DNA of 10,590 nt from NCBI GenBank assembly GCA_947175465.1, contig CAMWMY010000030.1:1-10590 (forward strand), given 5' to 3'. The notes under the pieces are model-generated. The model was not told the origin of the DNA. It saw nothing but the letters and a program-made list of their open reading frames with translations, and made no database searches. The translations under genes were made by a program, and so were the position numbers. Of this stretch, positions 2,290 to 9,407 are shown one piece after another (position 1 is the stretch's first letter; each line of letters opens with the position of its first letter). The stretch is from an uncultured Erysipelotrichaceae bacterium (GTDB lineage: Bacteria; Bacillota_I; Bacilli_A; Erysipelotrichales; Erysipelotrichaceae).

Positions 2290-3327
2290 ATGAAAAAAAT
2301 TTCTATCAATATGTTATCTTCTGCTGATAAAGTAGATGGCCAAGGTGTTGGAAGTGCATATCAAGAACAAGTAAATTTACTAAAAGAAGGCGCAAGTGAT
2401 CTATTTGATATTTATATCAATGATAAAAAAACAACAGATATTTTGCACCATCATACCCTTGATTTAAAAAATTATAGAAGACTTAAACAGCAAAAAAGTA
2501 TCAATGTTGTTTATGTCCACTTTCTTCCAACAACCTTAGATGGAAGTATCAAGCTTCCTCGCTTTGCTTTTGGAACTTTCAAAAAATATGTCACTAAATT
2601 TTATAATAAAGCAGACTATTTAGTTGTTGTAAATCCAACTTTCATCAATGAATTAGTTTCTTTTGGAATAGCAAAAGAAAAAATAAAATACATACCTAAC
2701 TATGTTTCTAAAAAACAATTTTATAAATTGGATCAACAGCAATGCCTTGCACTACGCCAACAATATGGTTATACAAAAGATGACTTTATTGTTATGGGAG
2801 TAGGACAAGTGCAAACAAGAAAAGGAGTTGCAGACTTCATAAAGGTTGCAAAATCACTTCCTCATATAAAATTTGTTTGGTGTGGAGGATTTTCATTTGG
2901 TCGTATTACTGATGGATATCATGAATTAAAAGAAATTTATGAAAATCCACCGAAAAATGTAAACTTCTTAGGTATTGTACCTAGAGAACAGATGAATCAA
3001 ATGTTTAATATGGCAGATGTCTTATTTATGCCCTCATATAATGAATTATTTCCAATGGCCATCTTAGAAGCAGTCAATAGTGAAAAGCCTCTTCTTCTTA
3101 GAAATCTTGAGCTTTATGAAGAGATTTTATTTAAAAAATATTTATGCGCAAATACAAATGAAGATTTTAAATCACTTCTTGAACAATTGTCCCAAGATCC
3201 ACTTTTATACCAAAAATATTCTCAATATGCGAAAGAAATTAGCGAATTCTATAGCAAAGAACACGTATTAAGTATTTGGAAAGAATTTTATCAAACAATC
3301 TATCAAAAGCACAAACATACTAAATAA
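2290..3327 (+). CDS. GT4-family glycosyltransferase, possibly glycolipid-forming (LafB/CpoA-like)
   Basis: A 345-aa protein with a two-domain GT-B layout and no signal peptide or transmembrane segment. The N-terminal acceptor domain has a glycine-rich loop, KVDGQGVGSAY (14-24). The C-terminal donor-binding domain has GQVQTRKG (172-179), whose Arg-Lys contacts the sugar-nucleotide phosphates in this family, and an E-x7-E motif (Glu252 and Glu260) typical of retaining GT4 enzymes. The GQGVGSAY opening resembles, from memory, LafB/CpoA-type enzymes that add the second sugar to diglycosyl-diacylglycerol, the lipid anchor of lipoteichoic acid. That link is inference; no lafA partner is adjacent. 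It would act on the cytoplasmic membrane face. The start is supported by an AGAGGAG ribosome binding site 9 nt upstream. The gene has its own strong promoter and terminator, so it is monocistronic. Confidence 0.9.
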   Translation: MKKISINMLSSADKVDGQGVGSAYQEQVNLLKEGASDLFDIYINDKKTTDILHHHTLDLKNYRRLKQQKSINVVYVHFLPTTLDGSIKLPRFAFGTFKKYVTKFYNKADYLVVVNPTFINELVSFGIAKEKIKYIPNYVSKKQFYKLDQQQCLALRQQYGYTKDDFIVMGVGQVQTRKGVADFIKVAKSLPHIKFVWCGGFSFGRITDGYHELKEIYENPPKNVNFLGIVPREQMNQMFNMADVLFMPSYNELFPMAILEAVNSEKPLLLRNLELYEEILFKKYLCANTNEDFKSLLEQLSQDPLLYQKYSQYAKEISEFYSKEHVLSIWKEFYQTIYQKHKHTK

Positions 3328-4492: not shown

Positions 4493-5476
4493 TTAAAATG
4501 GAATTTCATTGTACGTCATCGATGAAACAGAAATAGCCTCTTCATTAGAACCATGTAATGACACAACTACATCATCTACATAAACTTTAATATGATCTAC
4601 TCCCATAATTGCTGATAAAGATAATATTAAAGCATCATATGTCTGTTGCTTTGCACTACGATCTGCATCTAAAATATTAGCATTCACATGAACGATTAAA
4701 GTTCCATTTTCCATTTTAGGAACATCTTTAATATCAATATTATCGTTGTATAAAGGCTGTGATAATTGTGAAGATGCGGAAATATCTTCCATAATATATT
4801 TAGCTACATTTTCAATTGTTGGATTTTGCTCTGGAATTCGTTTACTTTTTGGGACAAAAAAGTCATAGTTTCCGATATTCTTAGTATAAAATACTGTAAT
4901 TGTCGAAGAGTTATATAAGCTTGTTGTACTTGTTTCAAAGTGGTTAATCCCAATTTTTTGATTTAATACTTCTGGAATAGGAGTTCCTCCTACTGGCATT
5001 TTAGTTAATACTTGGTTTTGATATTGAATTCTCACATTTTCAACTTCTTGAAATTGACTCACTCCCCATGCTAAAGCTTCTAGCACTCGAAGTTCTTTCT
5101 TTTCATCATAGTTACTAAATGCATCATTAAACGATAAAGTGGCTACGCCTCCTTCTATCGTAACTTCCAATAATTCACAATCTTGTTGAAACAACGGAGA
5201 AAAGTTATCAACTCTTACTGTTCCATTCATATAGTCCATAAGTAAAAAGATACGATCTTTCGTCGTTGTTGTAGCATCTACACGAAAAGAAATAGGTACT
5301 AATGTATCACTGTCATCTAATAAATATGTTTGTACAGATGTATGATTAACATCAGCTACAACACTTGTGGTTGTCTCCTCTTTCGGAAAGTTTTTTAAAG
5401 AAATATAAGATAACATAGCTACTGCTCCAAATAATAATGCAATTTGACGTTTATAACGACTACCTTTTATCTGCAT
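4493..5476 (-). CDS. gerM: GerM-like protein with two GerMN domains, N-terminal membrane anchor
   Basis: A 327-aa protein with a short basic N-terminus, one hydrophobic segment (about residues 11-28) and an extracytoplasmic part with two GerMN-like repeats (about 45-160 and 190-310). B. subtilis GerM is needed for sporulation and germination and helps hold the SpoIIQ-SpoIIIA channel in the engulfed forespore envelope. Identity is supported by domain layout and by position after murI, as in B. subtilis. Unlike the B. subtilis lipoprotein, there is no lipobox cysteine after the hydrophobic segment, so it appears to be anchored as an uncleaved membrane protein. The start is the ATG at 5476, 6 nt after GAGGTG; an upstream in-frame ATG at 5509 lacks a site. 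A CATATACT sequence just upstream is -10-like (sigma-A or sigma-E), but no convincing -35 accompanies it. Confidence 0.88.
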   Translation of the reverse strand: MQIKGSRYKRQIALLFGAVAMLSYISLKNFPKEETTTSVVADVNHTSVQTYLLDDSDTLVPISFRVDATTTTKDRIFLLMDYMNGTVRVDNFSPLFQQDCELLEVTIEGGVATLSFNDAFSNYDEKKELRVLEALAWGVSQFQEVENVRIQYQNQVLTKMPVGGTPIPEVLNQKIGINHFETSTTSLYNSSTITVFYTKNIGNYDFFVPKSKRIPEQNPTIENVAKYIMEDISASSQLSQPLYNDNIDIKDVPKMENGTLIVHVNANILDADRSAKQQTYDALILSLSAIMGVDHIKVYVDDVVVSLHGSNEEAISVSSMTYNEIPF

Positions 5477-5510
5477 ACACATCACCTCTGCTTCAAGTAT
5501 ATGCTTCACT

Positions 5511-5557
5511 AGAAAAAAAAGACTAATCTAGTTGCAATTTTGAAACTGGATAGTCTT
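5511..5557 (-). terminator. Terminator overlapping the last codons of murI
   Basis: On the - strand AAGACTA (5551-5557) pairs with TAGTCTT (5519-5525), and AGTT (5544-5547) with AACT (5530-5533), separated by a small irregular step. A run of eight T residues (5513-5520) follows at once. The stem lies mostly inside the murI coding region. Genes downstream (gerM, ysnB) would therefore depend on readthrough or their own promoter. Confidence 0.65.
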
Positions 5558-6278
5558 TCTTTAAAACCTTTTTTATTTGCTCATGCATATGCATTGCATC
5601 TTTCGTTGTATATATTTCTAATTGGTTTTCTGTATCACTTTTATAAAATGAAAATTGATGAGCAATAGCCTCATTAGAATCAAAAATATCGACATCTATA
5701 ATATTTTTGATGTAATTCTTTAAAATAGGGTAATGCGTACATCCAAGTATAATAGCATCTACACTTCCTATATAAGGTTGTAAATACTCTTGCAATACTT
5801 TTTGCACTTGCTCTTGGGAACTATTTTCCTCAATCATAGGAACTAGTTTAGGACATGCCAATTCAATAATTTCAGCACTACATATTTTTTTTAGTGTTTT
5901 TTGATAGGCCTGTTTTTGGACAGTAGCATGAGTAGCTAAAACAAGAATTCTTTGCTTTTCTGTTTGCTTAAGCTGGCAACATGTTGTTTCGATAATATCA
6001 TAAATATGCATTTGAGGATACGCATTGCGTAATTCATGCAATACATTGGCACATAATGTGTTGCATGCGATAACCACTTCTTGCACTTGACGCTGATATA
6101 AATATTGCATCATACGTAATCCATAATGTAACAATTCTTCTTTGCTGCAATCACCATAAGGAGCATGCTCTTGATCTCCTATATAAATGTAATGTGCCTG
6201 AGGATGTACTTTTTGCAAAGCTTCTAAAACAAGTAGACCACCTAAGCCAGAATCAACAACACCTATTTTTCTATTCAT
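5523..6278 (-). CDS. murI: Glutamate racemase MurI
   Basis: A 251-aa cytoplasmic enzyme that interconverts L- and D-glutamate without a cofactor, supplying D-Glu for peptidoglycan (MurD substrate). The two catalytic cysteines are present: Cys72 in ACNT (71-74) and Cys180 in GCTHYP (179-184). Asp9-Ser10 in VDSGLGGL and the APYGD loop (39-43) are also in place. After ACNT the sequence reads LCANVL where most MurI proteins have small residues such as ASA, a minor oddity. The length is slightly under the usual 260-270. The ATG overlaps the last 8 nt of the upstream VanY-like gene. An AGGAG lies about 15 nt upstream, farther than ideal, so translational coupling is likely. The position between gerE and gerM matches racE of B. 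subtilis. Confidence 0.96.
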   Translation of the reverse strand: MNRKIGVVDSGLGGLLVLEALQKVHPQAHYIYIGDQEHAPYGDCSKEELLHYGLRMMQYLYQRQVQEVVIACNTLCANVLHELRNAYPQMHIYDIIETTCCQLKQTEKQRILVLATHATVQKQAYQKTLKKICSAEIIELACPKLVPMIEENSSQEQVQKVLQEYLQPYIGSVDAIILGCTHYPILKNYIKNIIDVDIFDSNEAIAHQFSFYKSDTENQLEIYTTKDAMHMHEQIKKVLKKDYPVSKLQLD

Positions 6279-7296
6279 TTTTAAATACCATTTCTCCTAA
6301 TGTTAATTGCTTTTCATACATTTCTTGAGCTACTTTTTCTCCTACATAACGTAACGTATAAGGCTGGTATTGCTTCCCTGTTATATTCTCTTTTCCCTTT
6401 GGATATCGGATAATAAAGCCAAACTTATGTGCATTTTCTGCTAACCACTGGGATTGCTTCGTTTCTACAAATTGCTCGATATCTTCTATACCAGCACTTC
6501 CTGCTGGAATAAAGCGTATAGTATATCCCAACTGGAATTCACTGCGACCTGGATAATCTTCATACGCAAGAAAAGAATCATGTCCATATTTCACTAATGC
6601 TTTTTCATAAATTTCAACTTGATCTTCATAAGAAATATATCCTGCATTAACAATCAAATCCCCACATGTTTTTCCATTGATTTCTTCTGCTGCACTACAC
6701 ATTTTTTGTAATGGTTCAACGACTTCTTTTTTAACATATACACCTTTTTTACTTTGATCGATAATCGGCTGTACAGTAGGGATATCCCTTAAGAGCTCTA
6801 AGTCTTTCGGTTCATACGTATATAATGTTTGATTAGAAGACAATAATAAATGCTGAGCAGAAGGGTTCGTAATTAAAGAAGCATTTTTAATAAAACGATC
6901 TCCCTTACGATAATATTCACTTAAAGTATCGTAAGAGTAATTCATTAATAGTGTTTCTAAATCGCCATACTTCATATGACTTTTAAAAGTATTAATAAAA
7001 TTTACAATTTTTGAAGGTTCGGCTTCTTGAACACTTTTGGCACGATGGTACCATAATGCATTATAAATTGTAAAACCTGGTTCTTCAATAAACGGTAAAA
7101 ATTCTTCTGGTTTAATTTGTTGTGCACTTAAAAAATTAATATCTTCCGTACTTAAATACTTTAAAATAATATCTCTATTTTCTTCTGTTGCATAAGTATA
7201 ACGTGCTAATTCATCATAATGTTTATTCATAATCACATAACATACAAGAAATAATGTAATTAAACTAGCAATAAACAACATTCGTTTCATTTTCAT
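6271..7296 (-). CDS. VanY-like membrane-anchored protein lacking all catalytic residues (predicted pseudoenzyme)
   Basis: A 341-aa protein with an N-terminal transmembrane segment (about 6-23), an extracytoplasmic region of unknown type (about 25-190) and a C-terminal VanY D-Ala-D-Ala carboxypeptidase domain (about 190-330). The VanY framework is clear: NAGYISYEDQ (217-226, normally SGYRS...Q), PGRSEFQLG (249-257, normally PG.SEHQ.G), a Trp284 followed by GFIIRYP (292-298), ITGKQY (305-310) and LRYVG (315-319). The active site is lost, however. The zinc ligands His, Asp and His are Phe254, Arg261 and Thr314, and the catalytic Glu is Gln311. It therefore should not hydrolyse peptidoglycan stems but may still bind them. 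The frame is intact, with a GAGGTG ribosome binding site 5 nt before the ATG, its own promoter and an 8-nt overlap with murI, all signs of a functional gene. Role unknown; a cell-wall or sporulation function is inferred from its neighbours. Confidence 0.88.
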   Translation of the reverse strand: MKMKRMLFIASLITLFLVCYVIMNKHYDELARYTYATEENRDIILKYLSTEDINFLSAQQIKPEEFLPFIEEPGFTIYNALWYHRAKSVQEAEPSKIVNFINTFKSHMKYGDLETLLMNYSYDTLSEYYRKGDRFIKNASLITNPSAQHLLLSSNQTLYTYEPKDLELLRDIPTVQPIIDQSKKGVYVKKEVVEPLQKMCSAAEEINGKTCGDLIVNAGYISYEDQVEIYEKALVKYGHDSFLAYEDYPGRSEFQLGYTIRFIPAGSAGIEDIEQFVETKQSQWLAENAHKFGFIIRYPKGKENITGKQYQPYTLRYVGEKVAQEMYEKQLTLGEMVFKNE

Positions 7297-7369: not shown

Positions 7370-7393
7370 AAAAACCGCATCATAGCGGCTTTT
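7370..7393 (-). terminator. Terminator after gerE
   Basis: CCGC (7375-7378) pairs with GCGG (7385-7388), extended by four A-T pairs across a one-base bulge, with five T residues on the - strand (7370-7374). The stem touches the gerE stop codon. It closes the mutS2-uvrC-gerE unit before the next promoter. Confidence 0.6.
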
Positions 7394-7616
7394 ATAAATT
7401 TAATTCTTCCATTTTTAATAATTCAACTACAGCCTGTGCTCGTCCTTTCACACCAAGCTTAAGCATAACATTCGATATATGATTACGTACAGTTTTATCC
7501 GATATCTTCATCATATCTGCAATTTCTTTCGTACTGTAGTTTTGTATCAGCAGTTCAAACACCTGCTTTTCTCTTTGTGTTAAAATCGTTTGCGTATCCA
7601 TACCCCCTATGCTCAC
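7392..7616 (-). CDS. gerE: GerE-type LuxR-family transcription regulator
   Basis: A 74-aa protein consisting almost entirely of a LuxR-type helix-turn-helix, exactly the length of B. subtilis GerE, the late mother-cell regulator of spore-coat genes. The scanning helix is near TKEIADMMKI (29-38), and the recognition region KTVRNHISNVMLKLGVKGR (41-59) is nearly identical to the GerE sequence I recall. The C-terminal QAVVELLKMEEL also matches. There is no receiver or ligand-binding domain. The start is uncertain. GTG at 7616 gives full GerE length and has AGGA 10 nt upstream inside the uvrC stop. The ATG at 7601 (69 aa) has AGGTGA 11 nt upstream and a G-run directly before it. The gene follows uvrC by 12 nt and precedes the vanY-like and murI genes, as gerE precedes racE in B. 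subtilis. A sigma-K-like promoter motif lies just upstream. Confidence 0.9.
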   Translation of the reverse strand: MSIGGMDTQTILTQREKQVFELLIQNYSTKEIADMMKISDKTVRNHISNVMLKLGVKGRAQAVVELLKMEELNL

Positions 7617-7624
7617 CTACAATT

Positions 7625-7651
7625 TATCCTATGCATTACTTTCATTTTGGT
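7625..7651 (-). promoter_or_regulatory. Possible sigma-K-type promoter before gerE
   Basis: On the - strand CATAGGATA (7625-7633) fits the sigma-K -10 pattern CATAnnnTA, and an AC (7650-7651) lies 16 nt upstream, the spacing expected for the sigma-K -35. It overlaps the uvrC stop. In B. subtilis gerE is transcribed by sigma-K. The motif is short and such matches arise by chance in AT-rich DNA; its location is the main support. Confidence 0.35.
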
Positions 7652-9407
7652 CTGTATTATGTAAAACATTATGTATATTTTGAGCAATTTTCATAGGGAC
7701 AATATGGGCAATTTCTTCAAGTGTAGCTTCTTTTAAGCGTTTTAACGTTTTAAAGTGCTTCCAAATTTCTTTTTTACGCACCTCTCCAATACCTTCTACT
7801 TCATCTAAAATTGACTTTGTCATCGCTTTATTTCGAATTCTTTTATGGTAAGAAATCGCAAAACGGTGGACTTCATCTTGGATTTGTGTCAATAAGAAAA
7901 ATAAAGAACTATCTTTTCGAACCGGTATAATATTTCCATCTTGGTCCATAAGATTCGCTGTTCTGTGGTGATCATCTTTTACAAGTCCACATAAAAGTAG
8001 CGGGATATCCAAAGAAGTTAAAATTTCTTTTGCTGCTAAAATTTGTTGTAACCCACCATCTACAAGTAGGAGATCTGGAAATCTTCCTTTTTCTTTTAAT
8101 AATCGAAAATATCTTCGGTAAACAACTTCTTTCATAGAATCTAAATCACTCACATAAGTTCCAAGGCGAAATAAACGGTAATCCTGCTTTTTAGGCTCTC
8201 CATCTTGATAAACTACCATACCACTTACATTAAAGCTCCCTGCAATATGCGAATTATCAAAAATTTCAATACGATGAATTTCTTTCTTTAAAATATTACT
8301 TAACTCTTCCATCGCTTCTACTCGACGATGTTCCTTCCGCTCTACTAAATCAAATTTTTGCTTATGCGCATTTTTCGCATTTTCTACTACCATATCAACA
8401 AGTTTTAATTTATCCCCACGTATAGGCTGTACAATTTTCGTATCTAAAATATCTTGTAATTGCTCTATTTCATACGTATTTGGTAATAAAATTTCTTGTG
8501 GAAGTGGATGATTATTATAATATTGCAAAATAAAAGAAACAAATGCCTCTTCTTCACTTTCATATAAAGGCGTTACTGACAAGGTTCTTTCTAAAAGTTT
8601 TCCACCCCGTAAGAAAAAACCTTGAATCGATATATACCCTTTATCAACATAATATCCAAAAACATCACGATCTTTTCGATCTTTAAAATCAATTTGCTGT
8701 TTCGCTGTCACATGTTCAATCGCTTGAATCAATTCATGCTTTTCTTGCGCTTTTTCAAACTGTAATTGCATACTTGCTTCTTCCATTTCTTTTCGTAATG
8801 TTTCTAGCGTATCTTTAACATCCCCTTTTAAAAACTTTCGAATAGAAAGAGCCATATCCGTATAAACATCTTCTTCTAGTGTATGGATACAAGGTCCTAA
8901 ACACTGTCCAATATGATAATATAAACATTCTTTTTTAGGCAATGTTTTACATTTACGTAAAGGATATAATCGATTTAATAAAAGCATCGTTTGATAAGCT
9001 GCCCCACTATCTGGAAAGGGGCCAAAATATTCTGCCTTTCGATCTTTGGTATTTCTTACTACCTTTAATACAGGAGCTTTTTCTTTTGTTAGCTTAAGAT
9101 AAGGGTAGGATTTATCATCCATAAACATAATATTGTATGCAGGACTATATTTTTTAATAAAGTTAATTTCTAATAATAGAGCTTCTTTCTCACTTCTTGT
9201 CACAATGAATTCAAAATCATCAATTTGAGATACTAGTTTGGTTGTTTTAAAATCATGGGCTCCGACAAAATATTGACGAACACGATTTTTAAGCTTCTTT
9301 GCTTTTCCAACATAAATAATATCTCCTGCTTTATTTTTCATTAAATAACAACCAGGAAGAGCTGGCAAAAGAGCCAATTTATCCTGTATTTTATCCATAT
9401 TAGCCAT
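7629..9407 (-). CDS. uvrC: Excinuclease ABC subunit C (UvrC)
   Basis: A 592-aa cytoplasmic nuclease of nucleotide excision repair that makes both the 3' and 5' incisions around a lesion marked by UvrA/UvrB. Domains in order: GIY-YIG nuclease (about 15-95, with GCYL, IIYVG at 30-34, Arg42 and Glu80); a cysteine cluster (Cys153, 161, 169, 173) corresponding to the reported iron-sulfur site of E. coli UvrC; a UVR motif for UvrB contact (about 203-236); an RNase H-like endonuclease domain with Asp384 in EIFDNSH, Asp450 in LVDGG and His514 in DEVHRFAI; and a C-terminal helix-hairpin-helix pair (about 533-585). The length is normal for the family. The start at 9407 has GAGGG 7 nt upstream and overlaps the mutS2 stop by 8 nt, so the two are translationally coupled. 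Confidence 0.98.
   Translation of the reverse strand: MANMDKIQDKLALLPALPGCYLMKNKAGDIIYVGKAKKLKNRVRQYFVGAHDFKTTKLVSQIDDFEFIVTRSEKEALLLEINFIKKYSPAYNIMFMDDKSYPYLKLTKEKAPVLKVVRNTKDRKAEYFGPFPDSGAAYQTMLLLNRLYPLRKCKTLPKKECLYYHIGQCLGPCIHTLEEDVYTDMALSIRKFLKGDVKDTLETLRKEMEEASMQLQFEKAQEKHELIQAIEHVTAKQQIDFKDRKDRDVFGYYVDKGYISIQGFFLRGGKLLERTLSVTPLYESEEEAFVSFILQYYNNHPLPQEILLPNTYEIEQLQDILDTKIVQPIRGDKLKLVDMVVENAKNAHKQKFDLVERKEHRRVEAMEELSNILKKEIHRIEIFDNSHIAGSFNVSGMVVYQDGEPKKQDYRLFRLGTYVSDLDSMKEVVYRRYFRLLKEKGRFPDLLLVDGGLQQILAAKEILTSLDIPLLLCGLVKDDHHRTANLMDQDGNIIPVRKDSSLFFLLTQIQDEVHRFAISYHKRIRNKAMTKSILDEVEGIGEVRKKEIWKHFKTLKRLKEATLEEIAHIVPMKIAQNIHNVLHNTDQNESNA

Follow-up and report, generated by a model that had tools for sequence, protein, structure and literature searches.

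The window analysed here is a stretch of 10,590 nucleotides from an uncultured Erysipelotrichaceae bacterium, and the gene under study, gene Y, is an intact open reading frame at 6271-7296 on the minus strand, as had been claimed for it, which encodes a membrane-anchored, zinc-less VanY-like protein of 341 amino acids. Y is flanked by the gene of a GerE-like LuxR-type regulator of 74 amino acids (7392-7616, minus strand; domain scan) and by murI, which encodes glutamate racemase (5523-6278, minus strand). The end of Y overlaps the start of murI by 8 bp (6271-6278, minus strand), so that the overlap in the description "fused by overlap to murI" is real, but there is no fusion. Also on the minus strand are the gene for a GerM-like protein with a Germane domain (4493-5509; domain scan) and a gene at 7629-9407, which we take to be uvrC and which served as a neighbour probe; the names mutS2 and yfcE, as used in this analysis, are likewise our assumption. 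The plus strand carries a gene at 617-2077, whose product has two ABC_tran stretches, lacks an obvious membrane part and presumably resembles ABC-F ribosome-protection proteins, and a glycosyltransferase gene (Glycos_transf_1, 2290-3327) in opposite orientation to the uvrC-yfcE cluster.

The Y protein begins with a single predicted N-terminal membrane anchor at residues 2-25 (7222-7293; this and all following positions within Y on the minus strand), which is helical in both models and whose membrane nature is suggested by its hydrophobic letters. It is followed by the juxtamembrane motif Y-D-x-L-[AS]-R-Y at residues 27-33 (7198-7218), which according to the site rates is the slowest-evolving element of the family, by an all-helical N-domain in the models at residues 38-134 (6895-7185), for which no Pfam family scored above cut-off, and by a degenerate VanY/LdcB-like domain at residues 181-336 (6289-6756; Pfam and models). 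VanY (PF02557, residues 187-319) is the sole Pfam domain above cut-off, with an E-value of 3.8e-23 and 82.2 bits at a cut-off of 25, which bears out the predicted VanY fold; the models also predict this fold at high confidence. An M23/LytM domain was absent from Y in a Pfam scan to E 0.1, which returned VanY and a sub-threshold Med18 match. By its sequence, Y is related to membrane-anchored VanY/LdcB carboxypeptidases. Residues Cys200 and Cys211 (6664-6699) form a pair, perhaps a disulfide, that is found in 75 of 161 aligned rows, the enzymes L250 and L251 among them.

In order to evaluate the catalytic site, Y was aligned with BaLdcB, BsLdcB and SpLdcB by phmmer, whereby the motifs aligned without gaps. 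In published passages on SpLdcB, zinc is bound by H153, D160 and H207, and R120 forms a salt bridge to the product carboxylate. None of these residues is present in the Y protein of the window: the substrate-carboxylate Arg (R120), which is not replaced by Lys either, corresponds to I221 (6634-6636), and the H-D-H zinc ligands H153, D160 and H207 correspond to F254 (6535-6537), R261 (6514-6516) and T314 (6355-6357), respectively. The Glu three residues ahead of the last His (E204) is Q311 (6364-6366). All five substitutions named in the original prediction were thus found at their positions. Residues 166-341 contain only two His (239 and 290), so that no rearranged triad is visible. From these replacements it is very likely that catalysis has been lost in the window's Y.

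Orthologues, defined as matches spanning the whole protein, were searched in 272 genomes of the window's family (f1) and in an order-wide search of 315 genomes. Among the matches listed, Y matches occurred in 251 of the 272 f1 genomes and, at E 4.1e-22 or better, in 41 of 43 genomes of a second family (f2), 30 of which were fetched; listed matches of 13 f1 and 11 f2 genomes were left unfetched. Among the matches listed, Y also went unrecognised in many f1 genomes, and thus its role would not be essential throughout f1. The named contigs scanned include Amedibacillus dolichus, Longicatena, Merdibacter, Traorella, Faecalitalea cylindroides, Holdemanella biformis, Catenisphaera, Breznakia and Sharpea porci. 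N-domain matches at E 1e-20 or better were confined to f1, f2 and f10, a family from another order of the class, within overlapping samples of 395 class genomes and 392 phylum genomes. At 122 of 130 Y loci at least one of uvrC, gerE, murI, gerM and yfcE lay within the fetched stretch. In the window and in many relatives Y has DNA-repair and cell-wall genes as neighbours. The rows L001 and L002, which are the window itself, were left out, as were the stop-shortened L043, which lacks the C-terminal motifs, from the trees and the fragments L206 and L207 from the site-rate and subsite analyses; L171 and L192 are identical in sequence and were both counted. The orthologue L109 (1957-3141, plus strand) has a long charged insert within its VanY domain and is otherwise a typical zinc-less orthologue. 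Among 46 genomes whose Y is zinc-less, 41 contained further VanY matches (catalytic sets checked in part). In the remaining five, G000 (83% complete), G083 (86%), G199 (99%), G098 (97%) and G004 (66%), the degenerate VanY stands alone, so an active VanY partner is not obviously required.

The catalytic residues are lost to graded extents across the family. In the final alignment the substrate Arg was found in none of 139 family rows (Lys in 3), and no row has all five catalytic residues together. Glu at 311 is present in 16 of 139 rows, two of which (L023 and L025) have it at a shortened end. Three zinc ligands are kept in 47 rows, two in 7, one in 8 and none in 77. Orthologues with the H-D-E-H set, which had been named as a sign of a strain-specific loss, do exist (14 of 139), but they lie outside the window's own clade and all lack the Arg, and thus a strain-specific loss is excluded. 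This clade comprises 43 rows without any zinc ligand and has SH-aLRT values of 98 and 99 in two trees. In a tree of 149 rows the family forms a group of 131 rows (97), f2 a clade of 31 rows (100), a further zinc-less clade has 4 rows (99) and a mostly zinc-keeping clade 50 rows (97); these are quick trees with SH-aLRT values only, in which the outgroup does not occupy one side of a branch (one row lies on the wrong side). None of the 31 f2 rows has either zinc His, and the Asp is kept in 5. Four f10 rows lack the full zinc site, three having no ligand and one a His aligned at 314; they group with f2 at 88 and may thus share its loss. If three ligands were never regained, the 149-row tree would place the loss of the zinc site at least three times. 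Since the intact f10 enzymes L250 and L251 fall within the group holding the Y family in one tree, any count of the Arg and zinc losses is provisional. The loss is common to orthologues of many genera, which rules out chance or a sequencing error as its cause.

Selection was analysed with 44 degenerate pairs of more than 72% identity, three of which have infinite dS. Whole-gene dN/dS was 0.018-0.227 in all 41 pairs with finite dS, which are not independent of each other and include some with dS above 1.5, and for the VanY part it was 0.028-0.203 in 38 of 38 such pairs, again not independent. The low values show that the enzyme-like domain is maintained where it is present, and since purifying selection on VanY is about as strong as on the N-terminal part, the domain is not merely carried along. 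Together with the 43-row zinc-less clade, this sustains the earlier claim of selection rather than decay. First dN/dS values of up to 0.85 for zinc-less pairs and 0.99 for a zinc-keeping pair were discarded, because they came from distant proteins with unreliable dS.

Within the VanY domain, residues 254, 261 and 314 rank at the 79th, 73rd and 34th rate percentile in the 43-row zinc-less clade and at the 11th, 3rd and 1st percentile in the 50-row sister clade, where H254 is present in 42, D261 in 49, H314 in 50, the Arg in 0 and the Glu in 13 rows. An early comparison with a set picked for H-D-H was circular and was redone with this natural sister clade. The lowest rates in the zinc-less clade include those of Q255, L256, G257, R316 and Y317. 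Position 254 is occupied by Y, F, Q, A, N, L and others, and 261 by R, V, T, E and others; the expectation that the four replacements of His, Asp, Glu and His might be conserved among orthologues is thus not borne out for 254 and 261, and the old metal site has not been turned into a new fixed one. Over the whole family the mean site rate is 0.39 for residues 26-36, 1.04 for the N-domain and 1.34 for the VanY domain (181-336). R32 is present in 137 of 137 and D28 in 135 of 137 rows, with two rows gapped.

In the genus g18 the VanY domain is missing from some relatives. The N-domain model matches 7 of 36 genomes (E up to 0.01). Four of them (G103, G106, G124 and G133) have an N-domain-only reading frame of 139-143 codons, counted between stops. 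Its end adjoins yfcE or overlaps it, and a six-frame comparison of the fetched DNA gave no VanY match. In G109 the N-domain-only relative is interrupted by stops. The protein of G101 is longer and includes a VanY domain, and G122 carries a separate VanY-like protein of a different kind, which also occurs in G106. A second, separate VanY-like protein of this genus (L240, 1306-2385, and L241, 1174-2268, both plus strand) has kept the Arg but lost the whole H-D-E-H set (RLLMY and RASVY) and represents an independent degenerate lineage.

Taken together, fold, losses, clades, selection, synteny and domain deletion establish, as far as sequence comparison reaches, that Y belongs to a real, old and selected pseudoenzyme family, and we infer that the membrane-proximal part is its functional core. 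We lean slightly towards the reading that Y is a non-catalytic envelope scaffold or regulator. Y would be bitopic, with one N-terminal membrane helix, the invariant juxtamembrane D-x3-R, the helical domain and an LdcB/VanY-fold domain in which zinc binding and peptide cleavage would no longer be possible. The membrane-proximal part would contact a putative partner that sits in the membrane and takes part in making or hydrolysing peptidoglycan. The degenerate VanY domain would face the wall as a docking module, in logic like the degenerate LytM factors.

It could also be, though this seems unlikely to us, that Y is a stem-peptide sensor, whose emptied pocket binds D-Ala-ended stems without cleavage and signals via the membrane helix. 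The D-Ala subsite residues Q125, S151 and Y191 of SpLdcB are present in the window's Y as Q226, S252 and Y298, and its 15-row subclade has Q226 in 15, S252 in 10 (otherwise N), Y298 in 15 and Y245 (SpLdcB Y144) in 13 rows, which would fit ligand binding as well as scaffolding. However, 14 of 19 rows of a sister subclade are without Q226, in f2 the commonest residues at this position are L and A, the product-carboxylate Arg is missing family-wide, the former ligand sites vary freely, and a cytoplasmic signalling domain is absent, since the helix starts at residue 2. The proposed sensing of D-Ala-D-Ala is therefore possible in the window's own subclade but not a family-wide property.

The neighbouring gerE and gerM genes would hint at a sporulation or germination factor, which we regard as very improbable. 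SpoIVA was found above cut-off in 36 of 272 f1 genomes, including the window genome, and in 31 of 43 f2 genomes, and a Y locus is present in 35 of the 36 SpoIVA-positive f1 genomes, among those examined (exception, G206). gerE or gerM lies near Y at 49 of 55 loci in SpoIVA-positive genomes compared to 5 of 75 in the others, a count over 130 loci that includes many incomplete assemblies and short fetched flanks. However, these 75 loci without SpoIVA above cut-off keep Y, mostly beside uvrC or yfcE. Since Y is kept in both kinds of genomes, its presence goes with the uvrC-murI-yfcE neighbourhood rather than with sporulation itself. The original prediction is thus supported in that the protein is retained under selection without a catalytic site, but the link to spores does not hold as a general function.

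It is still less probable that Y itself acts as an enzyme, either metal-free or via another metal site. The 47 of 139 rows with three zinc ligands, 14 of which also have the Glu, mean that some family members may have retained zinc binding or even enzymatic activity, though without the Arg. However, the window's Y has none of the five residues and only the two His mentioned above, and EDTA abolishes LdcB activity according to passages of PMC4087270. That Y is a decaying pseudogene is hardly credible, since the stops in the G109 relative, an internal stop in the G076 copy and a G305 match flagged with one stop stand against intact frames in nearly all full-length matches, among the matches listed, and against purifying selection (at most 0.227 in 41 of 41 pairs), which contradicts it.

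Returning to the scaffold reading, we tentatively suggest, just short of calling it probable, that a VanY-type carboxypeptidase gave rise to a membrane protein across the window's order and one further order of the class, whereby the core moved to the juxtamembrane D-x3-R and the helical domain. The enzyme domain would have been disarmed stepwise, losing first the Arg, next the Glu and after that zinc several times, and some members of one genus would have lost the domain altogether. If this is true, the Y family would be a natural series from wall enzyme to envelope scaffold, and its graded members (zinc-keeping, half-lost, lost and with deleted domain) would allow tests of this transition. 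Pfam names the VanY domain a D-alanyl-D-alanine carboxypeptidase, and the window's Y and most of its relatives are without the needed residues; its conservation as a pseudoenzyme in many gut-type bacteria, at a locus related to the wall, points to an unstudied envelope factor. No paper combining VanY, pseudoenzyme and peptidoglycan was found among the freely accessible papers searched, and none of the titles and abstract openings listed there describes a degenerate VanY family.

Among known systems, Y shares the VanY fold with the LD-carboxypeptidases LdcB/DacB (BsLdcB, which is YodJ, BaLdcB and SpLdcB; PF02557), but has the Arg, the three zinc ligands and the Glu replaced and adds the juxtamembrane motif and the helical domain. 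The N-terminal domain of Sonic hedgehog, an animal signal, is a relative from the LAS superfamily that carries a zinc site, whereas the window's Y has none. The f10 VanY enzymes L250 and L251 have an N-domain-like region as in Y (E 1e-9 and 2.6e-6), but their R-H-D-E-H set is intact and the juxtamembrane D-x3-R motif is not visible. RgsM was considered as a precedent and rejected, because it keeps the HxxxD motif according to passages of PMC6107284. The degenerate LytM factors EnvC and NlpD, described in passages of PMC8416486 as regulators with a peptidoglycan-peptidase fold and an inactivated metal site, resemble Y in having a peptidase domain with lost metal ligands; they differ in that they carry a LytM domain and regulate amidases, whereas Y has a VanY domain and would act on a putative partner in peptidoglycan synthesis or hydrolysis.
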